A stretch of 64,000 bases of DNA from an uncultured Ruminococcus sp. GTDB taxonomy: Bacteria; Bacillota; Clostridia; Oscillospirales; Ruminococcaceae. The notes beneath the pieces were generated by a model. The model saw nothing but the letters and a program-made list of their open reading frames with translations. It was not told the origin of the DNA and ran no database searches. The position numbers were made by a program, and so were the translations under genes. The stretch is taken from NCBI GenBank assembly GCA_947627275.1, contig CANQVK010000008.1:1-64000 (forward strand). The letters run 5' to 3'. Numbering within the stretch: position 1 is the first letter of the stretch; each line of letters opens with the position of its first letter. Below are positions 4,895 through 61,230 of the stretch, in pieces.

Positions 4895-4896
4895 GA

Positions 4897-5214: not shown

Positions 5215-5242
5215 TCTTCCAACTCCTTTTCCGTTTTGGCAA

Positions 5243-5280
5243 CAAAAAAAGCGTTTCCCAAATTTCTTTGAGAAACGCTT
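5243..5280 (-). terminator. Leader hairpin with T-run upstream of the RepA-like genes
   Basis: On the minus strand AAGCGTTTC and GAAACGCTT pair and are followed by seven T. It lies between any outside promoter and the first RepA-like gene, so it is an attenuator or an insulator rather than an operon end. Confidence 0.6.
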
Positions 5281-45887: not shown

Positions 45888-46039
45888 CATTTTATTCATA
45901 TAAATATCATATAAAAGCTATTGCTTTTTTTGTGAAAATTGCAGTCAATTTCTATAGGCAACCTGCCCTGCGCTGCCTTTGGAATCACGTTGTTAGTTTG
46001 TTTTAACAGTCTTACCTTAAGGAGATTAATTACTTTAGT

Positions 46040-46285
46040 AGGGAACGCCCTCTCTTGCAGGGCGTTCCCTCTTTCAAAACAGTCCGATGGACTGTTTTGA
46101 AATTCACCCTTTGCGGAGCGCTTAAACGCTTTGTGGGGCGTTGATTCTCACCTGTCGGCTCGGTCGGTGCTTCTGCTTCGCAGAGGTGTCCACTGGACAC
46201 CCGCACCCCCACACCCCACCAGAGGCGCTGCCTCTGGACACCGCCAAAGGGACACCGTCCCTTTGGAATCCCACTGTTATTTTAT
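46040..46285. repeat. Cluster of hairpins in the 530-bp gap before the zinc-ribbon gene
   Basis: Perfect hairpin AGGGAACGCCCT/AGGGCGTTCCCT (46040-46070), then AAAACAGTCC/GGACTGTTTT, GGTGTCC/GGACACC, CCAGAGGC/GCCTCTGG and CCAAAGGGAC/GTCCCTTTGG, the last being the family B module. No gene is seen between 45900 and 46431; several nested element remains are likely. Confidence 0.65.
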
Positions 46286-46373
46286 TCTAACTTAGTTGGA
46301 ACTCTGTCATTGTTTAAACTACACAAATAATAAACGGCAAAAAAAACAATGTGTACAAATTTTTTGAAAGGTA

Positions 46374-46402
46374 TTGCAAATTCGGACGGGAAATGCTATA
46401 AT
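46374..46402 (+). promoter_or_regulatory. Promoter of the zinc-ribbon repeat gene
   Basis: TTGCAA (46374-46379), 17-bp spacer, TATAAT (46397-46402); ribosome site AGGGAGGG. Confidence 0.7.
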
Positions 46403-46431
46403 ATTTTTAAACGAATAAGGGAGGGCATTTC

Positions 46432-47934
46432 ATGATATGCAGCGTATGCGGAACCGAAAATGAAAAAGGATTTAAATTCTGCGTAAAATGCGGAAGCAAT
46501 CTTGAAAACCCTGATGAAACAAATTACGAACAGGTCGATATGGGCAACTACCACTCCGAGGAGGAGGGTGAAAACAACGGTTTTACCATGGATACGGGTA
46601 CTTTCGTAATCAGGGACACCGCACCTCCGCCCGAACAGAGCATCTATACCGCCGATGAGCTTAATCAGTCCGAGGAGGACTTCGATTTCAGCATGTACGA
46701 CGAACCGTCAATGGCAGCGCTGACTCCGCCGCCAACGGCACAGCCCACAGCTCCGCAGCAGACTTTCGCCCAGCCTCAGCCGCCCGTACAAGGTATGAAT
46801 CAATATATGGCACAGCAGCCTATGATGTATGCCCAGCCGCAGATCATAGGCTACGACCCCAACGGTATGCCGATATACGGTCAGCCGCAGGGCATGATGT
46901 TCGCCCAGCCGCAGGTAATCGGCTACGACCCTAACGGTATGCCGATATACGGTCAGCCGCAGGGCATGATGTTCGCTCAGCCGCAGATAATCGGGTATGA
47001 CCCTAACGGCGTACCGATATATGGTCAGCCACAGGGCATGATGTTCGCTCAGCCGCAGATAATCGGATACGACCCTAACGGCGTACCGATATACGGTCAG
47101 CCGAATTTCCAGCCTATGGGCGGAATGCCTGTGACGAATCAGGGAGTAATGCCTAACATGCAGCCGACGCAGGGTATGCAGTCCGTACCCAATCAGGGTA
47201 TGCAAGGAATACCAAATCACGGCATGACGCCCAATATGCAGGGCATGGCTAATGTTCCGAAACAGAACGGTATGCAGGGTATCCCGAATACTTCTCAGCA
47301 GACGGCAGAAGCTCCCAAAAAGGAAGAAGATAACGACTTTTGGTCGTTTTTTGACGGTGGAAGCGGCGAACATCACGCAAGCTCCGATGATGATTTCTTT
47401 GGCAAGGCAAGATCCGAGCCGATTATTTCCGACGACCCTTTCGCCGACATTGACAACAGACGGAAAATGCGTCTCCAAGCCGAAAAAGCGGCGCAGGGCT
47501 TTATGAGCGATACTCCTGTGGTAGACGGAGACAAACTGGCGAAAAACGATTCCGACCGCATAAACAAGCTTTATATGAGACAGACGGGCAATTCGGTTTC
47601 CTCCGATCTGACAGTCGGCGAAGGAAAGCATAAAAAGGGTACGATGGCAGCCGCAGGAGAAGTCAATGCGGATATGCTGGCAGAAAAACTCAACGTCCGT
47701 TCGAGGGTTTCCATGCAGTACGCCGATGAAATAAACGCGGACAGCATAGAAGCTTATGTTCCCGAACATCGTGAGGCGATAATGGCTCAGGCAGACCATG
47801 CCGTTGAAGCTATGCCGAAAAAGATCGATCCGTATGAAAGCGAGCTTGATAAAATCGAACTGCCTGAGTATATGCAGGCTAAAAAGACGGTGCATGAGGA
47901 TACTGCCGAAATTCCGTCTTTACCCGAAATTTAA
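46432..47934 (+). CDS. Zinc-ribbon protein with Pro/Gln-rich tandem repeats
   Basis: 500 residues. N-terminal zinc ribbon (CSVCGTEN ... CVKCGSNL), an acidic stretch, a Pro/Gln-rich part with four 24-residue repeats built on QGMMFAQPQIIGYDPNGMP (about residues 131-226), then a Met/Asn/Gln tail (QGMQGIPNHGM) and a charged helical C-terminal region. No membrane helix or signal peptide. The YDPNGMPIYGQP unit is typical of low-complexity linkers in Ruminococcus zinc-ribbon proteins. Intracellular, disordered, possibly scaffold-like; function unknown. Confidence 0.82.
   Translation: MICSVCGTENEKGFKFCVKCGSNLENPDETNYEQVDMGNYHSEEEGENNGFTMDTGTFVIRDTAPPPEQSIYTADELNQSEEDFDFSMYDEPSMAALTPPPTAQPTAPQQTFAQPQPPVQGMNQYMAQQPMMYAQPQIIGYDPNGMPIYGQPQGMMFAQPQVIGYDPNGMPIYGQPQGMMFAQPQIIGYDPNGVPIYGQPQGMMFAQPQIIGYDPNGVPIYGQPNFQPMGGMPVTNQGVMPNMQPTQGMQSVPNQGMQGIPNHGMTPNMQGMANVPKQNGMQGIPNTSQQTAEAPKKEEDNDFWSFFDGGSGEHHASSDDDFFGKARSEPIISDDPFADIDNRRKMRLQAEKAAQGFMSDTPVVDGDKLAKNDSDRINKLYMRQTGNSVSSDLTVGEGKHKKGTMAAAGEVNADMLAEKLNVRSRVSMQYADEINADSIEAYVPEHREAIMAQADHAVEAMPKKIDPYESELDKIELPEYMQAKKTVHEDTAEIPSLPEI
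46822..47109 (+). repeat. Four 72-bp coding tandem repeats
   Basis: Units begin at 46822, 46894, 46966 and 47038 (ATGATGTTCGCCCAGCC...), in frame with the zinc-ribbon gene; differences are mostly at third codon positions. Confidence 0.9.
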
Positions 47935-47940
47935 GCTTAT

Positions 47941-48100
47941 ATACTTACCTCTATTGCAAAATATTCATATATTTCGGCTAAAATTTCGCCATTCTGCGTC
48001 GCAAATCCTCGATGGGCGACAGCCCATCTTGCGGTTTGTTCCTTGCCTGACAAAATTTTATCCTGAAATCTTCTGGACATTTTGCAATAGAGGCAAGTAT
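47941..48100. repeat. Inverted-repeat element (family D)
   Basis: Ends ATACTTACCTCTATTGCAAAAT and its near complement at 48080-48100, with an inner hairpin GATGGGCGACAGCCCATC. Same end design as 20356-20480. Confidence 0.75.
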
Positions 48101-48120
48101 AACAAGGTTTTACTGTTATA

Positions 48121-48289
48121 AATAGACCTCCTCGGAAATCGGAGAAGCGCCGGATTCCGCAGGATATTTTGTTCTGTGCAAAGCGGCTCGACCGCAGGAA
48201 TACTGTATGTATTTCAAGGAAAAGACGCAAAGCACAGGGCGAAAGAGACAAGGAAGATAGTGCTTCGGAAGTTTCCGAGGAAGTCTAAT
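48121..48289. repeat. MITE-like element (family C)
   Basis: Ends AATAGACCTCCTCGGAAA / TTTCCGAGGAAGTCTA; core with GTGCAAAGCGGC, CCGCAGGAATAC and TTTCAAGGAAAAGACGCAAAGC like that in the cysS leader. Lies directly before the mscL ribosome site. Confidence 0.75.
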
Positions 48290-48313
48290 AAAAATAAAAA
48301 GGAGATAAAAAAA

Positions 48314-48733
48314 ATGAAGAAGTTACTGGAAGAATTCAAGGCGTTTATTATGAGGGGCAATATCATTGATATGGCTATCGGCGTTATCATCGGCGGTGCG
48401 TTCTCGGGACTTGTAACATCGCTGCTTGACAATATTATTTCCCCTATACTCGGATTTTTCAGCGTAGGCGGACTTAACGGGCTATCCATAAGAATACTCA
48501 ATGCCGATCTCAGATTCGGCGCGTTCTTTATGGACATCGTTAATTTCGTTATCATGGCGGCTGTCGTATTTATTATCATGAAGGCTGTCACCTCCATTAT
48601 GAACAAGTTTAAGAAGAAGGAAGAAGCCGCTCCCCCCAAGCCTTCCAAGGAAGAGGAGCTTCTTACTGAGATAAGAGATCTTCTCAAAGCTCAGGCAGGT
48701 ACTTCCGAAGCTGCTGAGAAAAAAGCCGAATAA
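48314..48733 (+). CDS. mscL: Large-conductance mechanosensitive channel MscL
   Basis: 139 residues: the conserved start KKLLEEFKAFIMRGNIIDMAIGVIIGGAFSGLV with the pore-lining helix, a second membrane helix (FMDIVNFVIMAAVVFIIMKAV), and a charged cytoplasmic helix (KEEELLTEIRDLL). Opens on membrane stretch to release solutes. GGAG eight bases before the ATG. Confidence 0.95.
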   Translation: MKKLLEEFKAFIMRGNIIDMAIGVIIGGAFSGLVTSLLDNIISPILGFFSVGGLNGLSIRILNADLRFGAFFMDIVNFVIMAAVVFIIMKAVTSIMNKFKKKEEAAPPKPSKEEELLTEIRDLLKAQAGTSEAAEKKAE

Positions 48734-48742
48734 TTACATAAC

Positions 48743-48970
48743 CGCTATCTACAACTTAAGTGGGGGACGCTGTCCCCCACACCCCCTGCCAAAGGGGTGA
48801 CCCCTTTGGAATCTCAGCTGTCGTAAATTTACCTGTATAAAGCCGCCTTGTTTATTTGTAAACTTAAGTTCACATGGCTTTATACAGGAAAATTTACGAT
48901 ATTGGGTTCTAAGAATTATCTCTCTGACAAGAATGAAGGGTAACAAAATACTCTTAAGTTGTAGACATTG
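48743..48970. repeat. MITE-like element, reversed copy (family B)
   Basis: Ends CGCTATCTACAACTTAAG and CTTAAGTTGTAGACATTG; inside the GTGGGGGACGCTGTCCCCCAC and CCAAAGGGG modules, then a long hairpin on CGTAAATTTACCTGTATAAAG. Opposite orientation to the other copies. Confidence 0.85.
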
Positions 48971-48984
48971 ATTACATAACGATC

Positions 48985-49030
48985 AAACGCCTTAGAGCCG
49001 TCCCGAAATACGACTTCTAAGGCGTTTTTA
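48985..49030. terminator. Terminator between mscL region and uvrC
   Basis: AAACGCCTTAGA / TCTAAGGCGTTT stem followed by T on the plus strand, A-run before it; usable in both directions. Confidence 0.75.
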
Positions 49031-49091
49031 CGTTGAATACATCTTGAACTAAGGCTCTATGAAATGGTAAGCATTCATAGGGACATGGCAT

Positions 49092-50915
49092 TTATAAATT
49101 CTGAATGACTTCCCAAAGCTCCTTTGCAGTCTCGGGACTTACGCCCGCTGTCTGCGCAAGCTCCTCCGGAGTGGCTTTGATAAGATTGGCTTTGGTCTTA
49201 TATTTTATCATTATCTTAGCCGCTTTCTTTTCTCCTATGCCCTTGACCGCAAGAAGCTCGGAGCTGTAGGTCTTTTTCTTGTGCCTGCTGTGCATATAGC
49301 TGACCGAATAACGGTGTACCTCGTCCTGTATTTTCGTCACAAGATTGAAAGCCGCCTGCAAATTATTTATCTGAATTTCCCGTCCGCCGGTCGCTATCGC
49401 CCGTGTTCGGTGCTTATCGTCCTTTACCATTCCGAACAGGGGAATATTAAGACCAAGCTCCTTCAGAACAGGTTCTACCGCATGGACATGTCCCGTGCCG
49501 CCGTCAAGCAGAATAAGGTCGGGAGTACGTCTGAAATACTCGTCTCCCTCCTGTTCAACGATATGAAGCAGACGTCTTTTCAGTACCTCGCGCATACTTC
49601 CGTAGTCGTTCTGATATTCCTGCTCCTTTATGGAAAACCGCTTATACGCTTTTTTCAGGGGTCTGCCGTCCTCAAAGACCACCATTCCGGCGACCATTGA
49701 TTCGGACGAAAGATTAGAAATATCGTAAGCCTCGATATATTTCGGCGGAGAAGCAAGTCCGAGACTTTTTCCCAACTGTTCCAGCGCAATGACCTCTTTT
49801 CCCGTGCGGCTGCTTTTCAAGGCTGCATATTCTGCGGAATTGCTTTTCGCAAGCTTTAAAAGGTCAAGCAGTCTGCCTCGCTGCGGCTGATGAAGCTTTA
49901 CCGCTCTGCCTGCCTGTTTTTCGAGCAGTTGTTCTATAAGCTCCGCTTCTTCGGGAATGTGGTCAACTGCAACAAGCTTCGGAATATCGTTTCTTCCGTG
50001 ATAAAACTGCACCATGAACGTGCTGAGAATGTCCTCCTCTGCGCCGCTTTTTTCAAGGTCGAAAACCGCCTTGTCGTAAAGGCGGTTTTCGCGGTACATC
50101 AGCACGGAAATGTAAACGCCGCTGTTATACTCGGCTACTCCGATAACGTCTGCCGAATCGACGCCGCTGTCGACCATTTTCTGCTTTTCCGACGCTTTTT
50201 TTACAGCGTTTATACGGTCGCGCAGCATTGCCGCTTTCTCGAAATTAAGCTCCTCCGCCGCCTCGTTCATCTCACGTTCCATACGTTCGACGGATGCGGC
50301 GCTGCCCGAGCGGATAAACTCTGCCGCTTCGTCAATGGTTTTCCTGTAAGCCGCGCTGTCTATATTTCCTCGGCAGACGCCCATGCACATTTTTATGTGG
50401 TAGTTAAGGCACGGACGCTCTTTGCGGAAATCCTGAGGAAATCTCCTGCGGCAGGTCGGCAGCATAAATACACGGTTCGCTTCTTTTACCGCTTCCTTTG
50501 TAATGTATGCGCTTGTGTACGGACCGAGGTATTTTCCGCCTGCCGAGGTGTTTTTTTCGGTAGTTATCCTCGGATATTCCCCGTCCGAGATACGGATATA
50601 GGAGTAGCCCTTATCGTCCTTGAGAAGAATGTTGTAGCGGGGTTTATGCTGCTTTATAAGGCTGCATTCGAGTACAAGAGCCTCAAATTCGCTGTCGGTA
50701 ACGATAAAGTCATAGTCAAAGACCTTTGAGACCATTGCCGCCACCTTCGGGGTATGGTCGGGATTTTCACGGAAATAGCTTGTAACACGCTTTTTCAGAT
50801 TTTTAGCCTTGCCGATGTAGATTATTCCGCTGTCCTTGTCTTTCATTATATAAACTCCGGGAGAAGCGGTCAGCCTTGACGTTTTTTCTCTGAGGTAGGG
50901 AAGTCTTGGATTCAT
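49092..50915 (-). CDS. uvrC: Excinuclease ABC subunit C
   Basis: 607 residues. GIY-YIG nuclease at the N-terminus (SPGVYIMKDKDSGIIYIGKAKNLKKRV), Cys-rich PTCRRRFPQD...RPCLNYHIKMCMGVC, UVR helix (EEAEELNFEKAAMLRDRI by position), RNase H-like nuclease (AYDISNLSSESMVAGMVVFE; LILLDGGTGHV) and terminal helix-hairpin-helix pair (KGIGEKKAAKIM). Cuts on both sides of bulky DNA lesions with UvrAB. Confidence 0.96.
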   Translation of the reverse strand: MNPRLPYLREKTSRLTASPGVYIMKDKDSGIIYIGKAKNLKKRVTSYFRENPDHTPKVAAMVSKVFDYDFIVTDSEFEALVLECSLIKQHKPRYNILLKDDKGYSYIRISDGEYPRITTEKNTSAGGKYLGPYTSAYITKEAVKEANRVFMLPTCRRRFPQDFRKERPCLNYHIKMCMGVCRGNIDSAAYRKTIDEAAEFIRSGSAASVERMEREMNEAAEELNFEKAAMLRDRINAVKKASEKQKMVDSGVDSADVIGVAEYNSGVYISVLMYRENRLYDKAVFDLEKSGAEEDILSTFMVQFYHGRNDIPKLVAVDHIPEEAELIEQLLEKQAGRAVKLHQPQRGRLLDLLKLAKSNSAEYAALKSSRTGKEVIALEQLGKSLGLASPPKYIEAYDISNLSSESMVAGMVVFEDGRPLKKAYKRFSIKEQEYQNDYGSMREVLKRRLLHIVEQEGDEYFRRTPDLILLDGGTGHVHAVEPVLKELGLNIPLFGMVKDDKHRTRAIATGGREIQINNLQAAFNLVTKIQDEVHRYSVSYMHSRHKKKTYSSELLAVKGIGEKKAAKIMIKYKTKANLIKATPEELAQTAGVSPETAKELWEVIQNL

Positions 50916-50980
50916 AAAAACTCCGTATTATAATTTTTTTAACAAAGTCCATTTAACTTAGGAATAGTTCTTTTCATACT

Positions 50981-51014
50981 ATAGCAAACGACAAAATATT
51001 TTGGCGTTTGCTAT
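50981..51014. repeat. 34-bp near-perfect palindrome
   Basis: ATAGCAAACGACAAAAT followed by ATTTTGGCGTTTGCTAT; one mismatched pair. It abuts the 104-bp repeat at 51014-51117. Confidence 0.7.
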
Positions 51015-51117
51015 TTGCCGAGCCGCACGTAGCGAACGTTAGTGAGCAAATGTGCGAGGCAATTAAAATCAAAATTATAGTGAATGTCAAATTTATTTTG
51101 ACGTTCACTATAATTTT
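51014..51117. repeat. 104-bp two-hairpin repeat, copy 1 (family E)
   Basis: More than 90% identical by eye to 63794-63897. First hairpin TTGCC..GCAC / GTGC..GGCAA, second AGTGAATGTCAAA...TTTGACGTTCACT. The rest of the gap to 51184 shows nothing recognisable. Confidence 0.85.
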
Positions 51118-51184
51118 CTATCGTTCTGTAAACAAGATGGGCAGATAGAATTTTGTCGATCAAGGAAAACAGGCGATTGTACAA

Positions 51185-51700
51185 TCAATGAAATTCTGCT
51201 ATTCTTGCGTACACATACAGATTATCATTAATTTTTTCAAAGCAGTAAACATTTCGTTGAGGTGATGTATTGTAATAAGGCTCACCAAAGAAATATTGAA
51301 CATCATTCATATTTTCTATATAGCAAACACCTATGTCTGTTTCAGGACAATAATCATAATAAAACAGTACAATACCGGGAGTGGTATTTGCTATGTTTTC
51401 AGAAAAGCCAAGTTCAAGCAGTTTCTGCTTTTTATCCGAATTGAGAATATAATTATCATTATTTCTAATGGCATCAGAACCAATTTCAGTAAACAAATCA
51501 TTATTGTTCTTTCCAATTTCTCTGCACTTATTGACATTTTTGTCAATTTCAGTGTAGTTGATGCGATTTTCCCAGTACGGACTCCACGGAAACGCGTGAT
51601 ATGTATTATAACAGAAATACAGACTAAAACCAATGATAAGTACAAAAATAACAACAAATATTATTATAAACTTAACTGCAAAACATTTTTTACCACGCAT
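51185..51700 (-). CDS. Hypothetical membrane-anchored protein
   Basis: 171 residues: basic start, one membrane helix (about 9-31, FIIIFVVIFVLIIGFSLYF), then an extracytoplasmic domain of ~140 residues with acidic/aromatic content (HAFPWSPYWENR, GIVLFYYDYCPETDIGVCYIE) and three Cys that could form disulfides. No family recognised. AT-rich, isolated between repeats. Confidence 0.65.
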   Translation of the reverse strand: MRGKKCFAVKFIIIFVVIFVLIIGFSLYFCYNTYHAFPWSPYWENRINYTEIDKNVNKCREIGKNNNDLFTEIGSDAIRNNDNYILNSDKKQKLLELGFSENIANTTPGIVLFYYDYCPETDIGVCYIENMNDVQYFFGEPYYNTSPQRNVYCFEKINDNLYVYARIAEFH

Positions 51701-51899
51701 CGTTTAAATCACCTATATCCAAAGTTATATACTAAACGCTATAGCAAATCACGCAGAGTGACGAAATTATATCCGTCAAGATTGTCTACAGGTTGATTGA
51801 AAATTAGTATCACAGACAGCCGCATTCAGGAAGTCCATAAATCTTCTTCCGCCGCATTTGTCCTGACATGTTCATTGCCGATCAAGGAATATGAGAGTA

Positions 51900-52523
51900 T
51901 TACTCATCATCGTAAACATTAAGAGGCTGAGAAAGCTCAGAAACGTCGCCCATCTTTTCTAACAAGGCTTTTTTCATAAGCGTCAGATCGAATACGTCGA
52001 GCTTACCGTCCATACACAGATCGGCAGCCGTCCAATTATAAAGCTCTGCATCAGGTGCATTCAGAAGCCATTTCTGTAAAGAAACAACATCGGCAATATT
52101 GAAGAGACCGTCATCGTTCGCATCACCGTCCGAAGGCGCAATATCGCCGACAAGGGGCGGAATTTCTTCCACTGTCGTTGGTTCTATAAATTCATCGGGA
52201 GGCAATGGCTCGCCTGCAAGGGGCGGAATTTCTTCCACTGTCGTTGGTTCTATAAATTCATCGGGAGGCAAGGGTTCGCCTGCGAGAGGCGGTATTTCTT
52301 CAACTGTCGTTGGTTCTATAAATTCATCGGGAGGCAAGGGATCGCCTACAAGAGGCGGAATTTCTTCCACTGTCGTTGGTTCTATAGATTCATCGGAGAT
52401 CATCGGAACGCCGGCTGTCTGGACTATTTCCTCTGATGACGCTGAAAATGCGCCCACTCCTGCGGCAGTACCGACAGCTGCAGAGGCTATAAGCGACGTT
52501 ATTTCTTTTGTGAATTTCCTCAT
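51900..52523 (-). CDS. Secreted dockerin protein with four 22-residue repeats (putative radical SAM substrate)
   Basis: 207 residues. Signal peptide (LIASAAVGTAAGVGAFSA), then four repeats of 22 residues with the invariant core IEPTTVEEIPPL followed by (A/V)G(E/D)PLPPDE (residues ~46-130), and a dockerin with GDANDDGLFNIADV and DLCMDGKLDVFD, ending in a short acidic tail. No catalytic domain. Its ATG overlaps the TGA of the radical SAM gene (ATGA), whose last codons provide GGAGGT, so the two are translationally coupled. The repeated T/E-rich core looks like a multi-core substrate for modification; this is an inference. Confidence 0.85.
   Translation of the reverse strand: MRKFTKEITSLIASAAVGTAAGVGAFSASSEEIVQTAGVPMISDESIEPTTVEEIPPLVGDPLPPDEFIEPTTVEEIPPLAGEPLPPDEFIEPTTVEEIPPLAGEPLPPDEFIEPTTVEEIPPLVGDIAPSDGDANDDGLFNIADVVSLQKWLLNAPDAELYNWTAADLCMDGKLDVFDLTLMKKALLEKMGDVSELSQPLNVYDDE
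52145..52408 (-). repeat. Four 66-bp coding tandem repeats
   Basis: 66-bp units, very similar in DNA (GTCGTTGGTTCTATAAATTC appears in three), encode the 22-residue repeats of the dockerin protein. Confidence 0.9.
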
Positions 52524-53500
52524 AGTGTTTTACCTCCATTATCTTTAGATATAATTTCAAGCGCCGTAAGAATATGTACTTGTTCTTCAAGACAGGCTGC
52601 ATCTGAAATGTCCCTTACCGTACCCGTTGTCGCCATTTTTTTGCAGGCGCATGAGTTTCGGCAGTATTCGGCTATCTCGCAGCCATTGCATCTTTCCGAC
52701 GTCATGGAATAATCGGGGTGGGCTGCTCTGGCTTTTTCAGCTTCGATACCTGCATAAACATCGCCGCACCGGTATTCCTGTTTATTTTGGAACTGTATAC
52801 AGGGATAAAATTTTCCGTCCCAGTTTATAAACAGCTTTTTTTTACATATTTCGCAGGTACTTCGAGTGTTTTCCCCGATCGTTTTCTTTTTCACAGCCAA
52901 CTCGTATACAAACAGGTCTTTTATTTCGGAAATTTTCCGCCATTGCTCTCTTAAAAGATCGCCGAAGCCGTCGAGGTCGTCGGGAACAAGAAATGCGTCC
53001 ATTGCTGCCGATACCTTTTTCACGCCGAGATCTTTCAGGTAAATGATATTATCATACAAAAAAGGGAGAGTTTCTTTCGTATAGACGAGCTGAACCAGTG
53101 TTTCAGGCTGATATTTCAGAAGTAATTTGAGATTCGCATCAAGAAGGGTCGTATCAGCGCCGCGTTCGGCACATTCCGAGCCGTCGTGTGACATATTTAC
53201 AGTAACTTTCTTCTCTGCACACCATTTTATAAATTCCTCGTCAAGAAGCGTTCCGTTTGTCGTGATAACAAAACGTTTCGCTTTAAGATTTTCACAGAAA
53301 TATTTTACGATGTCTTTGTAAAGCAGCGGCTCGCCTCCGAAGATATAAACGACTCCGGCGTCGCCGCGGCGATTTACAAATTCTGTTACCTGACGCATCG
53401 TTTCATCGCTGATGCAGCCGTACTCCGTATTAAGATGCCTCTCGTAACAGTAGCTGCATTTCAAATTACATCTGTTGGTAATGCTTATGGTGTAATCCAA
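52520..53500 (-). CDS. Radical SAM/SPASM peptide maturase
   Basis: 326 residues. CxxxCxxC cluster motif CNLKCSYC (Cys11, 15, 18), GGEP motif (FGGEPLLY), SAM-binding strand region, and a C-terminal SPASM domain with Cys in CEICKKKLFINWDGKFYPC, YRCGDVY, CNGCEIAEYCRNSCACKK and AACLEEQ, enough for two auxiliary clusters. This layout is shared by anaerobic sulfatase maturases and RiPP-modifying enzymes. No sulfatase is nearby; the coupled dockerin repeat protein is the obvious candidate substrate. The start is TTG with GGAGGTG eight bases upstream. Confidence 0.9.
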   Translation of the reverse strand: MDYTISITNRCNLKCSYCYERHLNTEYGCISDETMRQVTEFVNRRGDAGVVYIFGGEPLLYKDIVKYFCENLKAKRFVITTNGTLLDEEFIKWCAEKKVTVNMSHDGSECAERGADTTLLDANLKLLLKYQPETLVQLVYTKETLPFLYDNIIYLKDLGVKKVSAAMDAFLVPDDLDGFGDLLREQWRKISEIKDLFVYELAVKKKTIGENTRSTCEICKKKLFINWDGKFYPCIQFQNKQEYRCGDVYAGIEAEKARAAHPDYSMTSERCNGCEIAEYCRNSCACKKMATTGTVRDISDAACLEEQVHILTALEIISKDNGGKTL

Positions 53501-53655
53501 AAAAACACCTCCATGATATAACCCCTGTTATTTACATTAACGGAAAATCTTATTAAATGTGCGGATGAAAATGTTAATTTTTTGTAAACATTCCAATCGG
53601 CGTAAAAAACTTATGGCAGCGCCGAACAAAGCGCATTTCTAAGTTATCCTCGCCG

Positions 53656-54174
53656 CTATTGTCTGTTGAAATAGTCTATTCCTGCATTCGGACGGAAGTA
53701 CGTCCGTATATAGCCGTCAGTGGACAGAACGACAAATTCGTTTGTGTCCTCGATATAGTACACGCCGTCTCCGTCCTCCGCTTCGGTTTTAAAAAGAGCC
53801 TCCGAGCTGTTTATAACGTCGCTCGCTCCTGCTTCGTAGTCCTCTGCCGTCTCGTAATTGAAGTCTCCCTCAAACTCGCCGCCGTGCTTTTCAAAATGCT
53901 GTTCAAGCTGTTTCTGTGTACGAAAATGATACTCCACATAGGTATTATCGCTGTAATCATCGAATGCTTCGGTAATTTCAGGGGACGTTACCTCAATTCC
54001 CTCCGTCTCGGATTCAGCCGATGTTTCGGTATCTGTAGGAGCTTCCGTTTCCTTATACTGATATGAAGAGCTGTCGGCGTCAATACTTTCATTCAGCTCA
54101 TAATCCGCATATCCGCAGCCTGTGAGCATTATTGCCGCCGCAAGCGCAGTAACCTTTAATAATATTTTTTTCAT
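53656..54174 (-). CDS. Lipoprotein with C-terminal BECR-type nuclease-like domain
   Basis: 172 residues from the ATG at 54174. Lipobox LTGCG, a Thr/Glu-rich linker, then from about residue 80 a domain with EYHFRTQKQLEQHFEKHG, FNYETAEDYEAGASDVI, GVYYIEDTNEFVVLSTDG and IRTYFRPNAGIDYFNRQ. The pattern H...KHG...Y.TA..YE..A...NEFVV...G.I.TYF.P resembles barnase/EndoU/ColicinE5-RelE-like RNase toxins found in phage and contact-dependent systems. No immunity gene is recognised next to it. Could be an adapted, non-toxic version. Confidence 0.65.
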   Translation of the reverse strand: MKKILLKVTALAAAIMLTGCGYADYELNESIDADSSSYQYKETEAPTDTETSAESETEGIEVTSPEITEAFDDYSDNTYVEYHFRTQKQLEQHFEKHGGEFEGDFNYETAEDYEAGASDVINSSEALFKTEAEDGDGVYYIEDTNEFVVLSTDGYIRTYFRPNAGIDYFNRQ

Positions 54175-54191
54175 TTTAAACTCCGAACTTA

Positions 54192-55310
54192 TCAATTATC
54201 CAAAGTTCCGTGGGACAGAGATTTCAGGTATGCGTTGATAAATCCGTCAATATCTCCGTCCATTACAGCCTGTATATTTCCGTTTTCAAAGCCCGTGCGG
54301 TGATCCTTGGCAAGGGTATAGGGCATAAATACGTATGAGCGTATCTGACTTCCCCATGCTATTTCACGCTGAACGCCCTTGATGTCCTCGATTTTTTCAA
54401 GATGCTCACGCTCTTTTATCTCAACGAGCTTTGCGCGGAGCATCTTCATAGCGTAGTCCTTATTCTGATACTGGCTTCGCTGCGTCTGACAGGAAACTAC
54501 AATGCCTGTAGGCTTATGAATAAGACGTACCGCCGAGCTGGTCTTGTTTACCTTCTGACCGCCTGCGCCGCTTGAACGGTAAACCTCCATTTCAATATCC
54601 TCGTCCCTGATCTCCACCTCGATGGAATCGTCGATCTCGGGCATTACTTCAAGCGCCGCAAAGGAAGTATGACGTCTTCCCGAGGAATCAAACGGCGAAA
54701 TACGCACAAGTCTGTGTACTCCCGATTCGGACTTCATATAGCCGTAGGCGTTTTCGCCCTCAATGAGTATAGACGCCGATTTTACGCCTGCATCGTCGCC
54801 GTCAAGATAATCCATGAGGGTGACTTTATAATTGTGACGCTCCGCCCACATGTTATACATACGGTAAAGCATTTCAGTCCAGTCCTGAGCCTCTGTACCG
54901 CCTGCGCCCGCATGGAACGTGAGAATAGCGTTAGCTCCGTCATACTCGCCCGTGAGCAGAGTGGAGAGCTTTTCTTCTTCAAGCTTGCTCTTGAACTCCG
55001 CCGCTTCGGACTTTATTTCCTCTACGGAGCTTTCATCTTCTTCCTCTATAGAAAGCTCGATAAGCGTTATAACGTCCTCCAACTGATCGTTGAGCTTGTT
55101 GTATCTCTCAATCTTGCGCTCAAGAGATTTTGTTTCCTGCAAGACCTTCTGCGAATTCTCCAGATCGTCCCAGAAGCCCTCTTTTGCTGTTTCGGCGTTG
55201 AGTACCTCGATGCGCTCCTTTGCCGCCTTTATGTTCAATACGTCCGCAAGCTCCGCCATTTCTTTACGGCAGCCCACTAACTCTAATCTGAGTTCGTCAA
55301 GTAGTATCAT
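54192..55310 (-). CDS. prfB: Peptide chain release factor 2
   Basis: 372 residues from the ATG at 55310. Catalytic GGQ in SSGAGGQKVNKT, stop-codon reading SPF in RISPFDSSGRRHTS, helical domain 1. The reading frame is continuous through the N-terminal region where many bacteria carry an in-frame TGA and a programmed +1 shift, so this gene lacks that autoregulation. Confidence 0.95.
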   Translation of the reverse strand: MILLDELRLELVGCRKEMAELADVLNIKAAKERIEVLNAETAKEGFWDDLENSQKVLQETKSLERKIERYNKLNDQLEDVITLIELSIEEEDESSVEEIKSEAAEFKSKLEEEKLSTLLTGEYDGANAILTFHAGAGGTEAQDWTEMLYRMYNMWAERHNYKVTLMDYLDGDDAGVKSASILIEGENAYGYMKSESGVHRLVRISPFDSSGRRHTSFAALEVMPEIDDSIEVEIRDEDIEMEVYRSSGAGGQKVNKTSSAVRLIHKPTGIVVSCQTQRSQYQNKDYAMKMLRAKLVEIKEREHLEKIEDIKGVQREIAWGSQIRSYVFMPYTLAKDHRTGFENGNIQAVMDGDIDGFINAYLKSLSHGTLDN

Positions 55311-55379
55311 AAAAATTCCTTTCTTTAACAGGTGCAAAATTTAGCATTCTGTTATATCTCAAAATTTACATACAGTTTT

Positions 55380-55408
55380 ATTATATCATATATCCGTGAA
55401 AAGTGCAA
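55380..55408 (-). promoter_or_regulatory. prfB promoter
   Basis: Minus strand TTGCAC (55403-55408), 17-bp spacer, TATAAT (55380-55385). The remaining gap to 55742 shows only a possible TATAAT at 55647-55652 for the next gene. Confidence 0.6.
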
Positions 55409-55742
55409 CGCTTTTTTAAAATTTCACATGAAAAGCGCTGTTTTTACTATGATTTTATATAACTTATCCTTATTGTAAACGTAAATAAAAATAAACTTAT
55501 ATAAGACAGCATAACGCCATGCTTAAGCCGCCATTCCCTTGACCGTTTCAACAAATCCGCAGAATATTACATATGCGTTTTTGTAGCAAACAACGATAAA
55601 TTGAGAAAACTAAATGAAAACTCTATATTTCTTCATAAATTTGTGGTATAATAAAAACAGATAAAAGAGAGAATCAGAGGGGAATCACTTCTTCATTAGA
55701 GAACAGAAAACATGTGTAGAAATATTTAAGGAGCTGATACCT

Positions 55743-56861
55743 ATGCCTAAAAATATCAGTAAGGAAAAAAGCATAAACAGAACGAAAACTACTGCCGAGC
55801 TTATTGTATGCGCCATTTTTCTCGGTACTGCGGCTCTTATCGGAAAAAGCTGCATTGACCGTTCAAGGATCGTTCCGGCAACTCAGAACGAGGGAAAAAA
55901 GGTCGATGAAATAACGATACCCGACCCATCCGAAGCAATTGACCCGAACAAGATCATTTTTACCTCTACCCCTGTCAATACCCGCGCCAAATTCAGCGGA
56001 AACCTTATCCTCGTCAACAACGATTACCAGTATTACACAACGGACGAAGAAGATCTGGTCAGCATAATGTCCATGAACGATGAAAACGGCAGGACAAGCT
56101 TTACTGCCGTTGACTACGATTATACGATCCTCAGCAACGTCTACAAGCCTCTTGCTCAAATGGTAGACGACTGGTACGAGATATACAAAAACGATACGCT
56201 CATCGTTTACGGCTCATATCGCTCAAACGAATTTCAGCAGCAGCTTTACGACCAGTTCACCGCCAATACTTCCGGTGACGGCGAAGCGCCAATAGTTGCG
56301 CCGCCCGGATTCAGCGAGCATGAAACAGGTCTTGCTTTTGATTTCAGCGAAACTGTCGGACTGGACTATCAGGGTACGGGCGATTTCCTTTGGCTCAATG
56401 AAAATTGCGACAAGTACGGTTTTGTCATAAGATACGCGGAGGATAAAGAGGATATTACGGAATATCGCTACGAACCATGGCATTTCCGCTATGTCGGCAT
56501 ACCTCACGCTAAATATATGACCGATAACAATATCTGCCTTGAAGAATACATCGAGCTTCTGCGAAACGCTCACCCATACAACGGCGAACATCTTGAAGTC
56601 ACCGATGATTCGGGAGCAGCTTACGAAATATATTTCTTTCCGTCAGACGACGGCGCAGAGTATACGAACGTTCCCGTGCCTACAGGCTTAAAATATGATC
56701 TATCGGGAAATAACGTCGACGGCTTTATCGTTACCGTCCATAAGGACGAAAAAGTAAGCATCGGCGCGGAAAATCTCTCCGTTACCACTTCTCCGCCCTC
56801 TACGGAAACTACGGATTCCGAAAGCGCAACGGATTCCACGGAAACTACCGCTGCATATTAA
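55743..56861 (+). CDS. M15-family D,D-carboxypeptidase (VanY-like)
   Basis: 372 residues: N-terminal membrane helix (about 19-36), a beta-rich lead region, then the peptidase M15B/VanY domain (about 115-280) with zinc motifs SEHETGLAFDF and EPWHFRYVG and the YGSYRSNEFQQQLY substrate-side motif. A Ser/Thr-rich tail follows. It trims D-Ala from peptidoglycan stem peptides at the outer membrane face. AAGGAGCTG precedes the ATG. Confidence 0.9.
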   Translation: MPKNISKEKSINRTKTTAELIVCAIFLGTAALIGKSCIDRSRIVPATQNEGKKVDEITIPDPSEAIDPNKIIFTSTPVNTRAKFSGNLILVNNDYQYYTTDEEDLVSIMSMNDENGRTSFTAVDYDYTILSNVYKPLAQMVDDWYEIYKNDTLIVYGSYRSNEFQQQLYDQFTANTSGDGEAPIVAPPGFSEHETGLAFDFSETVGLDYQGTGDFLWLNENCDKYGFVIRYAEDKEDITEYRYEPWHFRYVGIPHAKYMTDNNICLEEYIELLRNAHPYNGEHLEVTDDSGAAYEIYFFPSDDGAEYTNVPVPTGLKYDLSGNNVDGFIVTVHKDEKVSIGAENLSVTTSPPSTETTDSESATDSTETTAAY

Positions 56862-56866
56862 ACTTC

Positions 56867-56902
56867 AAAAGCTGAGAGCCAATTATAGGTTCTCAGCTTT
56901 TT
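56867..56902 (+). terminator. Terminator after the VanY-like gene
   Basis: AAAAGCTGAGAGCC / GGTTCTCAGCTTTTT; strong stem with T-run, also usable by the convergent gpr gene. Confidence 0.9.
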
Positions 56903-56933
56903 ACTTCATTTTGTCAAGCAAACTGACATTTGT

Positions 56934-57782
56934 TCAGAACAACCCCCTTACATCGTCAAAACTGAGTGTCGGCTGCAAGGCAAGATTTATCCCGAAAGCT
57001 ATAAGCTGCGCCGCACGTTCGGCAAGTCTGTCAACGTCGCGGGGCGTTACCATCATATTCGGCGTACCCTCGTCGATATCCACATCTGCAAGACTGCGGA
57101 CGATCGTGTGCATATCCACAACGGTAGGCACGCCTACTGCCACCACAGGTATCCCCAGCGTTTCTAAGGAAAGCTCCTTTCGGGCGTTTGAAACGCCGCT
57201 TCCCGGAGAAATACCGCTGTCGCTTATCTGAATGGTAGTCCCCAGCCGGCTTATATCCGAACAGGCAAGGGCATCGACAGCAATAACTGCCGCCGGCTTT
57301 ATTTCACGGCATATCGCTGTTATCAGCTCCGCAGTCTCGATACCCGTCTGCCCGAGAACTCCTCCTGCAAGACTGCTCACAGGGCGGAGCGCAGTCAGGA
57401 AAGCCTCCTCCTCGCTGTCAAGCTCCTTTTTGAGATGTCGGGTAGCAAGAATCTTTTCCGCTGTATGAGGCCCTATGGCATCGGGCGTAATGTCACGGTT
57501 GCCGAGTCCGGCTACGAAAATTTCCCCCTCGGGAAGAAGCGGCTTAAGCTCGTCCGCAAATTCCTGAGCCATATCCTCGTAGGTATCGCAGAATCGGCTC
57601 AGACTGCCGCTTTCAAGCGTGATGTACCTGCCCTTGCCCTTACCGAGAGTATGACGGTAATCGTCGTTTTCTATGATGATCTCGGTTATCCGAAAGGCTT
57701 CTCCCCGTTCTTTTTTGCTGACCCCTTTCGGAAGCCTTTCGGCGTTTATCTGTTCTACGGCAAGATCCGATCTGAAATTCAT
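56934..57782 (-). CDS. gpr: GPR endopeptidase (spore germination protease)
   Basis: 282 residues, slightly shorter than the Bacillus enzyme. Start motif FRSDLAVE near the zymogen cleavage site; FVAGLGNRDITPDAIGP, KPAAVIAVDALA, TIQISDSGISPGSG. It degrades small acid-soluble DNA-binding proteins when spores germinate, so the organism keeps at least part of a sporulation programme. Confidence 0.93.
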   Translation of the reverse strand: MNFRSDLAVEQINAERLPKGVSKKERGEAFRITEIIIENDDYRHTLGKGKGRYITLESGSLSRFCDTYEDMAQEFADELKPLLPEGEIFVAGLGNRDITPDAIGPHTAEKILATRHLKKELDSEEEAFLTALRPVSSLAGGVLGQTGIETAELITAICREIKPAAVIAVDALACSDISRLGTTIQISDSGISPGSGVSNARKELSLETLGIPVVAVGVPTVVDMHTIVRSLADVDIDEGTPNMMVTPRDVDRLAERAAQLIAFGINLALQPTLSFDDVRGLF

Positions 57783-57870
57783 GTTATTCTCCTCCGATTC
57801 TACGCGTGGCTTTGTCTATTATGCTGTATTTCACCATGATTTTCACGATATATTCTTTCGTTTTTTACAA

Positions 57871-57899
57871 TTGATTTTTTTCGTAAAAAATGGTATAAT
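57871..57899 (+). promoter_or_regulatory. rpsT promoter
   Basis: TTGATT (57871-57876), 17-bp spacer, TATAAT (57894-57899). The ~115-base leader has a GGCAGTTGTGC/GCAGCTGCC hairpin; GGGAGG is the ribosome site. Confidence 0.75.
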
Positions 57900-58015
57900 T
57901 AATATTGTCTCAGTGGGCAGTTGTGCGTTGCAGCTGCCGGCACATTGTAATGATGTGCTTATAATATGTATTATCCTTTGGTTAATTCAAGGAAAATTTC
58001 GGGAGGTGCAACAAA

Positions 58016-58276
58016 ATGCCAAATATCAAATCCGCTAAAAAGAGAGTTAAGGTCAACGCTACAAAGGCTGCTGCCAATAAGTCAAGAAGATCCAACCTCA
58101 AGACTGTTCTCAAGAAGGCTGACATCGCCTGCTCTACAGGTGCTGCCGACAAGGCAGAGGCTGTTAAGCTCGCTGTCAAGAGAGTAGATCAGGCTTGTGC
58201 AAAGGGTCTTATGCACAAGAACAAGGCTGCCCGCAAAAAGGCTCAGCTTGCTAAGAAGCTTAACGCTGCTCAGTAA
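58016..58276 (+). CDS. rpsT: 30S ribosomal protein S20
   Basis: 86 residues, highly basic and helical, with the S20 pattern MPNIKSAKKRVKVNATKAAAN and NKAARKKAQLAKKL near the end. Binds 16S rRNA. Single-gene unit with promoter and terminator. Confidence 0.96.
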   Translation: MPNIKSAKKRVKVNATKAAANKSRRSNLKTVLKKADIACSTGAADKAEAVKLAVKRVDQACAKGLMHKNKAARKKAQLAKKLNAAQ

Positions 58277-58286
58277 TATAAAAAAC

Positions 58287-58320
58287 TCCCCCCGAAGTCT
58301 TGCGATCCGGGGGATTTTTA
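58287..58320 (+). terminator. Terminator of rpsT
   Basis: TCCCCC / GGGGGA stem with a 16-base loop and TTTTTA tail. Confidence 0.85.
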
Positions 58321-58338
58321 TTTTATTATGATTTTTAA

Positions 58339-58364
58339 TAGGGACACGGCACGCCGTGTCCCTA
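58339..58364. repeat. REP-like palindrome
   Basis: TAGGGACACGGCA / CGCCGTGTCCCTA, the same family as 7423-7450. Confidence 0.85.
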
Positions 58365-58469
58365 CTTGTGTGCTTACTAAGGGAACGCTTAAACGCTATG
58401 TGGGACAAAGTCCCTTTGAAATCCCGATGTTAGTTTGCTTAAGTTGCTGACATATTTCTGCGCAGTTCC

Positions 58470-58635
58470 TTAGAGACTGTTTAATATCTCGGCGTGTGCG
58501 GATCTTCGAGCATAATTTTGCCGAGTACAAGACAAAAATCCGCAGGCATACTGCCGTATGGCAAGGATTTTTAACGCAGTAATCGGCAAAATTTGCCGAA
58601 AATACGTGCGCGAGGAGATTTTAAACAGGCTCTTA
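58470..58635. repeat. MITE-like element (family C, diverged)
   Basis: Ends TTAGAGACTGTTTAATATCTC and GAGATTTTAAACAGGCTCTTA; core CCGCAGGCATACTGCCGTATGGCAAGG, as in the other family C elements. Its right end touches the recR stop codon. Confidence 0.7.
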
Positions 58636-59235
58636 CATATAATTACGATTTTCAAGCGCTTTAAAAAGCGTTACCTCGTCGGCGTATTCCAGTATTCCTC
58701 CCACCGGCAGCCCAAAGGCAAGCCGTGAGACTTTCACGCCCAAGGGTTTCAGCAGATTGGCAATGTACAGCGCGGTAGCGTCGCCCTCGACCGTGGGATT
58801 GGTCGCCATAATGACCTCCTCAACGCCGCCCTGAGAAATTCTCGCCAGAAGCTCACGTATTCTCAGTTTATCGGGCGTTATGCCGTCCATAGGCGAAAGC
58901 AGTCCGTGAAGAACATGATAAACGCCTGCGTATTCACGGGTACGCTCAAAGGCAGTAACGTCCTTAGGAGATTCAACTACGCAGACAACGCTACGATCTC
59001 GTCCCTCATCGCTGCATATGGGGCATACCTCGCGCTCGGTAAGATTCTGACATACCGAACAGCAGCGGACGTTCTTTTTAGCGTCAATGAGAGCCTGAGC
59101 GAACTCCTCGACCGACTGCATATCCATTGACATAACATGATACGCCAATCGCTGAGCCGACTTCATTCCGATACCGGGCAGAGAAGCAAATTTTTCCGCC
59201 AGTATGACAAGAGGAAGAGCGTTATGGTCAGCCAT
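58633..59235 (-). CDS. recR: Recombination protein RecR
   Basis: 200 residues: HhH region (FASLPGIGMKSAQRLAYH), Cys4 zinc finger (CSVCQNLTE..CPICSDEGRD), Toprim domain (CVVESPKDVTAFE). Acts with RecF/RecO in gap repair. Shares a base with the ebfC stop (TAATG) in the conserved dnaX-ebfC-recR operon. Confidence 0.96.
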   Translation of the reverse strand: MADHNALPLVILAEKFASLPGIGMKSAQRLAYHVMSMDMQSVEEFAQALIDAKKNVRCCSVCQNLTEREVCPICSDEGRDRSVVCVVESPKDVTAFERTREYAGVYHVLHGLLSPMDGITPDKLRIRELLARISQGGVEEVIMATNPTVEGDATALYIANLLKPLGVKVSRLAFGLPVGGILEYADEVTLFKALENRNYM

Positions 59236-59579
59236 TAAAACATTCCGGGAATGGATACCCCGCCTGTGATCTTGCTCATTTCAGTTTCCGTAGTAGTCTC
59301 TATGGTGTTTACAGCTTCGTTGATAGCGGAGATGATAAGATCCTGAAGCATTTCGATGTCCTCCGGGTCTACGACCTCGGGCTTAAGGTTAAGGGACTTT
59401 ATCTCCTTTTTGCCGCTGAGTGTGACCTCAACTGCGCCGCCGCCTGCCGTAGCTGTAAACTCACGCGACTCTATATCCTCCTGAAGCTCCGTGATCTGAT
59501 CCTGCATCTTCTGAGCCTGTCTGATCATCTGATTCATATTCTGCGCTCCGCCTGAATTTTTAGGTATTCTTGCTTTCAT
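59235..59579 (-). CDS. ebfC: YbaB/EbfC family nucleoid-associated protein
   Basis: 114 residues from the ATG at 59579 (AAAGGAG upstream). Helical QMIRQAQKMQDQITELQEDI, central strands FTATAGGGAVEVTLSGKKEI, then LQDLIISAINEAVNTIE. Small dimeric DNA-binding protein, always next to dnaX and recR. Confidence 0.94.
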   Translation of the reverse strand: MKARIPKNSGGAQNMNQMIRQAQKMQDQITELQEDIESREFTATAGGGAVEVTLSGKKEIKSLNLKPEVVDPEDIEMLQDLIISAINEAVNTIETTTETEMSKITGGVSIPGMF

Positions 59580-59610
59580 TTTTAATTTCTCCTTTATATT
59601 TTTGGCTGTA

Positions 59611-61230
59611 TTATGCCTGATTATCAACAGCTGTTTCGATACTGCTGTTAATTGCTTTTTTCACAAGCTGCTCCGCCATTGATCTCGTTTCCTCGACGGT
59701 AGCGGTACAGCGTGCGGAGATCCTGTATTTCTGCCCGAGAACGTTAAATATCGCTTTACTCAGGGAAACAGCGTTCTCCTTGCTGCTCTTGAAAAGCGAG
59801 ATAAAAAATCTGTTCGGGGTGAAAATACACATCACATTTCCCTTGGACGCAGCATAGGAGCCGTCAAGACTTCCTGCGACCGCAGGATTTATACGGCGGA
59901 ACTCCTCCATTATCTCATTCCAGCGCGTACACGGTGTAAGCTCGTCCTCGGTTATTGTTTTTATGTCAATACGCACATTCGGCTGCGGCTCATTTTCAGC
60001 GGCGGGACTTGTCGCAGTCAGCGTTTCACGTTCCCGAGGAGCGTTTCTGACAGCCGCCGGAGCGTTATTCAGCCGGTTCTCAAGCATTTTTATCTTTTCA
60101 ATAAGATTTGAAACATCGGCGTCCGAAGCTCCTCCCGAAGCCTCGCGAACGTTTCCGCAAAGCCTGATAAGAGCCATTTCAAACTCAACGCGCTTATTCA
60201 TAACGCGTCCCATACGTTCACGGCAGCCTTGAAGCTGTGCAAGACGCTTCATTACCGTATCGAGGTCGGAGCTGTCCGCAATTTTTTTCAGCCGTTCCAG
60301 TTCATCGGGCATAGCCGTGATTATGTCCTCCGCAGTAGCCGGCGACGCCTTAAGAAGCATGATGTTTCTGAGCTGTAAAATAAGCTCCTCGCAAAGTCTC
60401 GTAAGATCCTTTGACATATCGTAAAGCCTTGAAGTTATCTCCAAAGCCTTCGGAGCGTCCGACTGAGAAACAGCGTCGAGAATATCATAAAGGAACTCAC
60501 GTCCTGCGATACCTGCGGTCTGCGAAACAGTTTCAGCGGTTATTTCATCTGCGCATACGGAACACTGGTCGAGAAGCGACACAGCGTCTCTCATACCTCC
60601 GTCCGCTATTTTGGCAATGAGCGCCGCACCGTCTCCGCTGAGCGAGAGATTCTCCTGTTCTGCGATATACAGCAGTCTTGCCGCTATATCCTTCTGCCTG
60701 ATACGGCGAAAATCATACCGTTGACACCGTGAAGCCACAGTAGCGGGAACTTTGTGTATCTCCGTAGTCGCAAGAATAAACTTGACGTACTCGGGCGGTT
60801 CTTCCATTATTTTCAGCAGCGCATTGAACGCCGAAGCCGAAAGCATGTGAACCTCGTCAATGATATATATTTTGTACCTGCACCGTTCGGGCGAATAGAC
60901 TGCGCCGTCCCGAAGCTCGCGTATGTCCTCAACGCCGTTGTTGGAGGCGGCGTCTATCTCGATAATATCGGTAAGAGAGCCTTCATCGGCTTCCCGACAT
61001 ATATCGCATTCAAGGCAAGGACTGCCGTTCTTCATATTCGGGCAGTTCACAGCCTTTGCAAGGATCCTTGCGCAGGTAGTTTTTCCAGTTCCACGAGAGC
61101 CCGTAAAAAGATAGGCGTGTGCGGTCTTATCGTTTTTCAGCTGATTTTTGAGAGTTTCAGTAATATGCTGCTGAGAGATAACGTCATCGAAGGTCAGCGG
61201 TCTCCACTTACGATATAAAGCCTTATACAC
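59611..61230 (-). CDS. dnaX: DNA polymerase III subunit gamma/tau
   Basis: About 539 residues from the GTG at 61230, which follows AAAGGGGGAG; an ATG at 61260 would add 10 residues. Walker A GSRGTGKTT, zinc module CPNMKNGSPCLECDIC, Walker B IYIIDEVHML, SRC motif VASRCQRY; C-terminal part with a short linker and a tau-like domain. Clamp loader core. Downstream of the SRP RNA gene, as in many Firmicutes. Confidence 0.95.
   Translation of the reverse strand: MYKALYRKWRPLTFDDVISQQHITETLKNQLKNDKTAHAYLFTGSRGTGKTTCARILAKAVNCPNMKNGSPCLECDICREADEGSLTDIIEIDAASNNGVEDIRELRDGAVYSPERCRYKIYIIDEVHMLSASAFNALLKIMEEPPEYVKFILATTEIHKVPATVASRCQRYDFRRIRQKDIAARLLYIAEQENLSLSGDGAALIAKIADGGMRDAVSLLDQCSVCADEITAETVSQTAGIAGREFLYDILDAVSQSDAPKALEITSRLYDMSKDLTRLCEELILQLRNIMLLKASPATAEDIITAMPDELERLKKIADSSDLDTVMKRLAQLQGCRERMGRVMNKRVEFEMALIRLCGNVREASGGASDADVSNLIEKIKMLENRLNNAPAAVRNAPRERETLTATSPAAENEPQPNVRIDIKTITEDELTPCTRWNEIMEEFRRINPAVAGSLDGSYAASKGNVMCIFTPNRFFISLFKSSKENAVSLSKAIFNVLGQKYRISARCTATVEETRSMAEQLVKKAINSSIETAVDNQA

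Follow-up and report, generated by a model that had tools for sequence, protein, structure and literature searches.

A conserved pair of a radical SAM/SPASM enzyme and a secreted, repeat-bearing dockerin protein in Ruminococcus

Genes and features at the locus

In a 64,000-nt stretch of contig CANQVK010000008.1 from an uncultured Ruminococcus sp. (assembly GCA_947627275.1; hereafter the window), we analyzed a gene pair on the reverse strand comprising a radical SAM/SPASM enzyme, the presumed maturase, and a secreted dockerin protein with a repeated central region, its presumed substrate, hereafter referred to as the partner. The pair has the following features (ORF, open reading frame).

52520..53500, reverse strand: radical SAM/SPASM enzyme gene (presumed maturase); ORF of 326 aa with a TTG start, containing CNLKCSYC
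51900..52523, reverse strand: repeat-dockerin partner gene (secreted, presumed substrate); ORF of 207 aa with an ATG start
52520..52523, reverse strand: ATGA overlap of the enzyme stop and the partner start, from the ORF calls and the sequence
52532..52537, reverse strand: GGAGGT, presumed ribosome-binding site of the partner, within the enzyme's last codons, from the sequence
53507..53512, reverse strand: GGAGGT, presumed ribosome-binding site of the enzyme gene, from the sequence
52434..52523, reverse strand: N-terminal leader/signal region MRKFTKEITSLIASAAVGTAAGVGAFSASS, partner residues 1–30, compared across 34 distinct precursors
52134..52424, reverse strand: core region, partner residues 34–130, five [T/L]xG cores with a period of 22, overlapping four copies of IEPTTVEEIPPL
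51960..52127, reverse strand: type I dockerin, partner residues 133–188, from a Pfam match

A preliminary description of this DNA had pointed to the ATGA overlap and to a GGAGGT within the final codons of the maturase gene, and both are seen in the sequence. This GGAGGT sits 8 nt 5′ of the partner's ATG, and the one assigned to the enzyme gene sits a short way 5′ of its TTG. In the ORF listing of the window, no other tailoring genes are seen between the neighbors of the pair.

The enzyme and its partner are inherited together

We searched for relatives of the enzyme in one genome per GTDB species and analyzed the 80 highest-ranking among 344 that were confirmed. Identity to the window enzyme shows a gap among these, falling from 55% to 34% or less, with 29 loci on the near side, labeled Ruminococcus, Oscillospiraceae and, once, Clostridium. 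The next downstream gene encodes a leader-repeat protein in 28 of these 29 loci; the remaining locus ends at a contig edge with the partner's first residues present, which brings the partner to 29/29. Cultured strains of R. flavefaciens such as ATCC 19208, Y1 and YAD2003 (loci L017, L021 and L022) are among the carriers of the pair.

Among 396 genomes of the window's family, the enzyme is present in 12 (E 1e-40 or better), and a profile covering partner residues 1–40 matches proteins in 35 (E 0.01). The 12 genomes that carry the enzyme coincide one for one with those of the 12 best profile matches (E 2.4e-7 or better). Because the profile was built from 22 partners of the enzyme, some of them from the same species, the absence elsewhere is the informative half of this co-occurrence. 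The two strongest of the 23 other matches, in G370 and G030 (7.1e-7 and 1.1e-5), were considered as orphan partners and rejected as ordinary signal peptides on unrelated proteins. The window's own genome contains one leader match, and the family-genome search yielded 13 further enzyme loci, 11 of them with the partner.

The pairing of the enzyme with the repeat-dockerin protein is conserved across species. The preliminary description had proposed a search for other genomes in which this enzyme family adjoins short dockerin repeat proteins, and such genomes are found (29/29 near loci, 12/12 family genomes). A check of the patterns it listed as contrary, sulfatase neighbors or a repeat protein widespread without the enzyme, favors the pairing in the genomes searched. 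The same counts contradict the alternative that an anaerobic sulfatase maturase, or some other SPASM enzyme, adjoins a dockerin gene by chance; the enzyme scores only 59.1 bits against the anaerobic sulfatase maturase family (TIGR03942, NCBIfam sulfatase_rSAM), for which the cut-off is 349.45. We regard a chance neighborhood as barely credible.

At one related locus (L013:2907-4673), a single enzyme gene is followed by two consecutive partner genes.

The enzyme is a SPASM protein with a peptide-maturase-like predicted fold

Pfam assigns the enzyme a Radical_SAM domain above cut-off (62.5 bits) and a SPASM domain slightly below it (20.2 bits, cut-off 21.5). CNLKCSYC occupies residues 11–18, and the radical SAM domain runs from the very start of the protein, with no N-terminal extension. 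Across 25 aligned enzyme sequences (L015 excluded), the radical SAM cysteines are invariant in 25/25, as are eight SPASM-type cysteines (C216, C219, C234, C271, C274, C280, C284 and C303). The spacing that broadly defines radical SAM/SPASM enzymes, CxxxCxxC plus C-x9-G-x4-C ... CxxCx5Cx3C ... C, is present, in agreement with the earlier assignment as a maturase with a Cys-rich domain. Its own genome contains one full match to the enzyme; three further matches are fragments that belong to two different radical SAM genes.

In a curated-family scan, judged on the 25 highest-ranking among 83 matching families, the enzyme misses the cut-offs of the PapB, SCIFF and sulfatase maturase families. PapB (NF047865), a ranthipeptide maturase, is its best NCBIfam match, yet it scores 120.7 bits where 340 are required, and we rejected membership. 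The SCIFF thioether maturase family (TIGR03974) was likewise rejected at 75 bits against 425; its precursors would be short and Cys-rich, and the cores of the window partner, described below, are Cys-free.

In an AlphaFold2 model (mean predicted local distance difference test score 89.3), the predicted fold of the enzyme is nearest to those of SPASM enzymes acting on peptides and proteins. Model residues 1–319 align in the structure comparison to residues 94–448 of the CteB chain (PDB 5wgg and 5why, which we take to be CteB, the SCIFF thioether maturase). As model residue 1 aligns at CteB residue 94, the enzyme appears to lack the N-terminal part of CteB, which has about 90 more residues at this end. 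CteB also differs in its Cys-based substrate, the PDB title naming thioether bond formation.

The partner combines repeated glycine cores with a dockerin

The partner had been described as carrying a signal peptide and a dockerin but no enzyme domain. We assigned the signal peptide by eye, and Pfam places Dockerin_1 (PF00404) at residues 133–188 (29.1 bits, cut-off 22.9) with zero further domains above cut-off, and none enzymatic. The genome holds 65 dockerin matches and 3 cohesin matches, 2 of them above cut-off, and a cellulosome is therefore plausible; a Dockerin_1 match above the Pfam cut-off together with cohesins in the same genome is the combination by which we recognize a cellulosomal dockerin.

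Between the signal peptide and the dockerin, IEPTTVEEIPPL recurs at residues 47, 69, 91 and 113 with a spacing of 22, and the gene contains a direct DNA repeat with a spacing of 66. The three full repeat units differ at 7 codons, of which 5 changes are silent and 2 fall at residues flanking the glycine. A near-identical database protein, P0121, is shorter by exactly one 22-residue unit when compared with P0122, so repeat number is variable.

The window partner contains five cores, TAGVP, LVGDP, LAGEP, LAGEP and LVGDI, with glycines at residues 38, 60, 82, 104 and 126. Across the 34 distinct precursors, the columns aligned to glycines 38, 82, 104 and 126 are nearly invariant and that of glycine 60 is not, while the TTVEEIPPL part varies. 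The element that recurs in the family is the glycine core [T/L]-x-G, not IEPTTVEEIPPL. Thus the 22-residue spacing and the four IEPTTVEEIPPL copies of the preliminary description stand, but its count of four repeats gives way to five cores by conserved glycine, and IEPTTVEEIPPL, which it took as the invariant core, is invariant inside the window protein only, with the [T/L]xG glycines persisting across the family.

We tallied 242 family cores with a pattern that presets the residues allowed two positions before the glycine and with dockerin starts set by an ad hoc pattern. Thr (74) and Leu (73) predominate two positions before the glycine; directly before it we find Ala (88), Met (30), Ile (30), Val (24) and others, and directly after it Thr (73), Val (43), Asp (34), Glu (23) and others. 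By a relaxed count, 31 of 32 linkers hold 3–12 cores and one holds 17. The window partner has a single Cys, C170, which lies inside the dockerin; some relatives have scattered linker Cys, a few of them directly beside a core glycine.

One alternative is that the enzyme targets the dockerin, or the extra stretch that follows it in some partners (long in L009, L012 and L028), with the Thr/Pro/Glu linker serving as a mere spacer. Thr/Pro-rich linkers are common in cellulosomal proteins, and the partner linker is hypervariable among relatives, both of which speak for this alternative. However, the window protein, like many others, has no such extra stretch, and six of 34 precursors fall below the dockerin threshold, whereas the leader and core glycines persist. 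The genome's other dockerin proteins align with the partner only beyond about residue 120 and so lack its leader and cores. We consider a target outside the cores quite improbable.

The leader is probably conserved beyond what export would ask

The leader MRKFTKEI, which is also part of the presumed signal peptide, is nearly invariant. In the 34 precursors, K3, F4 and I8 never vary, and T5, K6, E7 and L11 are nearly invariant. Codon use at the three invariant sites is mixed (Lys 19/15, Phe 17/17, Ile 27/5/2). Signal peptides are usually less tightly conserved, and on this ground a second role for the leader is likely from the alignment, most simply recognition by the enzyme.

A linked precursor gene, a conserved leader and a variable or repeated core are all found here, the layout of a ribosomally synthesized and post-translationally modified peptide (RiPP). 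Several cores with a conserved leader and a neighboring modifying enzyme are the usual layout of a multi-core RiPP, which raises the alternative that the modified repeats are released by a protease as a bacteriocin or signal, the dockerin merely delivering or parking the precursor. The near-identical cores, conserved leader and adjoining modifying enzyme are consistent with release, as are the varying repeat number (P0121 versus P0122) and the VanY-type and germination-protease-type peptidases encoded within 5 kb of the pair. On the other hand, no transporter gene is seen at 46000–60000 besides a small MscL-like channel gene, identified by eye. Of seven flanking window genes compared, the VanY-like gene alone recurs, in L033, among 34 related loci, many with just 1.5–5 kb of flank. 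Moreover, the dockerin is kept in 28 of the 34 precursors (Dockerin_1 at E 0.01), and some, such as L009, L012 and L028, extend beyond it. Release seems to us distinctly unlikely.

Comparison with characterized maturases and candidate chemistry

PapB, like the enzyme's nearest relatives by fold, is a peptide-modifying SPASM enzyme. It forms Cys to Asp/Glu links (PMC9413430), whereas the cores of the window partner offer no Cys for a thioether.

A parallel in substrate design is TvgB, a cyclopropylglycine synthase that acts on repeated TVGG and removes 2 Da from several Val, one such loss for each modified repeat (PMC9062424). It too is a radical SAM enzyme with many short T-x-G repeats per precursor, but the TvgB pathway includes oxidase and peptidase/transporter genes (PMC9062424). 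TvgB acts on Val (PMC9062424), whereas Val or Ile precedes the glycine in only 54/242 cores of the window family and Val in 2/5 cores of the window protein. The words dockerin, lipoprotein and Ruminococcus are absent from the TvgB text (PMC9062424). We considered cyclopropylglycine as the general product and rejected it; since most cores are without Val or Ile, it is impossible at all cores, although reaction at the 54 alone is compatible with the data. For the same reason, our proposal goes no further than a radical reaction that takes place at the core glycine or an adjacent residue.

If modification occurs, we give ring or bond formation with a loss of 2 Da roughly an even chance, some other reaction a lesser one, and epimerization before the glycine a smaller one still. 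The last can be framed as an alternative in its own right, in which the residue before each core glycine is inverted and D-residues lock turns of the linker with no change in mass. This would be a sub-case of the favored explanation given below, and the two probabilities overlap. The conserved glycine after the modified position argues for it, and a reaction at the alpha-carbon fits because the residue before the glycine can be almost anything; taken by itself, we hold it to be unlikely.

In the open-license literature, as judged by titles and abstract openings, we found no paper that describes a radical SAM enzyme acting on a dockerin protein, in line with the preliminary description.

Lipoprotein relatives and a second SPASM-dockerin pair

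On the far side of the identity gap lie 51 of the best 80 loci. We examined the neighbors of 12, of which 4 have a lipoprotein layout and 8 another. In the former (L037-L040), PapB-like enzymes 27–28% identical to the window enzyme adjoin lipoproteins; the L039 enzyme scores 232.9 bits against the NF047865 cut-off of 340. A search with one lipoprotein as query gathered 43 proteins including the query, many of which have TMGEP, LMGDVP or TAGVP-like elements between the lipobox and a C-terminal domain. Like the window pair, these loci place a PapB-like enzyme beside secreted proteins with xGD/E elements; they differ in the leader (KYPxKY...KPNRW) and in having a lipobox in place of the dockerin.

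We compared the cores of the two families using 32 dockerin linkers (L028 excluded) and 39 of the 41 lipoproteins P0215-P0255 (P0256 and P0257 excluded). The dockerin-derived core pattern occurs in 21/39 lipoprotein linkers, against a shuffle mean of 4.1 and maximum of 12, a contrast whose significance is exaggerated by the mutual relatedness of the linkers. This comparison is suggestive of a core common to both families.

A second pair lies in the window's own genome on contig C22, at the following position.

L097 (G000:C22:29000-37500), forward strand: YGPP partner at 3665-4186 and SPASM enzyme at 4179-5270

Here, the gene for a 173-aa dockerin protein, in which VYGPP occurs twice, overlaps that of a TIGR04133-like SPASM enzyme (271.3 bits, below the cut-off of 425). 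The enzyme is present in 33/396 family genomes at E 1e-50, and a YGPP-bearing frame lies directly upstream of it in 28 of 30 fetched loci. Among these 28 YGPP proteins, Pfam finds a dockerin in 11 and a DUF805 membrane domain in 2; a further pattern, a lipobox without a calcium-loop match, is seen in 11/28 by a simple search in which several of the chosen starts may be off. Val precedes YGPP in 63/85 elements, and the N-terminus is conserved as MKKTxKTxLxAA. The X-Y-G element resembles the XYG motif of splicease sites. This pair resembles the one in the window in combining a SPASM enzyme with a secreted repeat protein that has a conserved N-terminus and a dockerin or lipid anchor, and differs in its distantly related SPASM subfamily, reverse gene order and xYGPP core. 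The dockerin has the look of an exchangeable surface anchor, and its occurrence with two distantly related SPASM families supports a role in display.

A displayed, modified module as the favored explanation

We think it probable that the two genes form a dedicated maturase-substrate pair in which the cores are modified and the product is displayed on the cellulosome through the dockerin. This explanation builds on the gene pair and its co-inheritance, the conserved leader and cores, the dockerin, the cohesins of the genome and the predicted enzyme fold. The partner would be synthesized with a segment beginning MRKFTKEI that may act both as the recognition leader for the enzyme and as a Sec signal peptide. 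Guided by this N-terminus, the enzyme would modify the [T/L]-x-G cores of the linker in the cytosol, the likeliest reaction being an oxidative bond formation at the conserved glycine or immediately beside it, each core losing 2 Da. Export of the product would follow, after which its dockerin would be held by a cohesin of the cellulosome. With no small peptide released, the cores would be retained as a surface-displayed spacer, chemically hardened or functionalized.

Several points weigh against this explanation. The residue before the core glycine is highly variable (A, M, I, V, E, D, T, S and others), with which a side-chain-specific reaction is hard to reconcile, and six of the 34 precursors miss Dockerin_1 at E 0.01. 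Two second-copy enzymes with 50–52% identity (L110 and L111, in genomes G096 and G292), the remaining two of the 13 further loci, have no adjoining partner; each of these genomes also holds a normal pair (L106 and L105). The core match between the dockerin and lipoprotein families is one-sided: the lipoprotein-derived pattern occurs in 4/32 dockerin linkers (shuffle mean 3.6, maximum 10) and is not enriched, and profile transfer between the dockerin and lipoprotein linkers, from which L034, L109 and L036 (long inserts) and L028 (dockerin start unmatched) were excluded, reaches z values of only 2.1 and 2.0.

A radical SAM enzyme with a repeated-core substrate is of a known kind; what is new is the dockerin, the signal peptide as likely leader and the Cys-free glycine core. 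Accounts of cellulosomes speak of enzymes and binding modules assembled on scaffolds. If the favored explanation is correct, the pair adds a post-translationally modified, non-enzymatic module to the parts of the cellulosome, and offers a ready-made route to display radical SAM products on the cell surface. The Cys-free, glycine-centered, repeated substrate also opens a search for new radical chemistry with one enzyme, one substrate and several cores. With confidence somewhat short of even, we suggest that radical SAM enzymes make products for display instead of release, with a signal peptide as leader, modified glycine cores retained in the protein and an exchangeable anchor (lipid, membrane domain or dockerin). 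In cellulosome-forming relatives of Ruminococcus, two distantly related SPASM families would each have acquired dockerins, making such repeat proteins recurrent parts of the cellulosome, and the reaction of the window enzyme at a Cys-free [T/L]xG, where the side chain before the glycine is not fixed, may be undescribed.

Additional observations

The second enzyme copy in G096 (L162, G096:C71:38000-54000, at 7853-8863; 52% identity) has no partner among the ORFs of at least 170 aa in 16 kb, and the leader search of its contig was negative. By eye, the genes on either side of this copy encode an exported, repeat-rich protein and a further radical SAM protein. Elsewhere in the window, a 500-aa zinc-ribbon protein encoded at 46432-47934 on the forward strand contains tandem repeats resembling MMFAQPQIIGYDPNGVPIYGQPQG.
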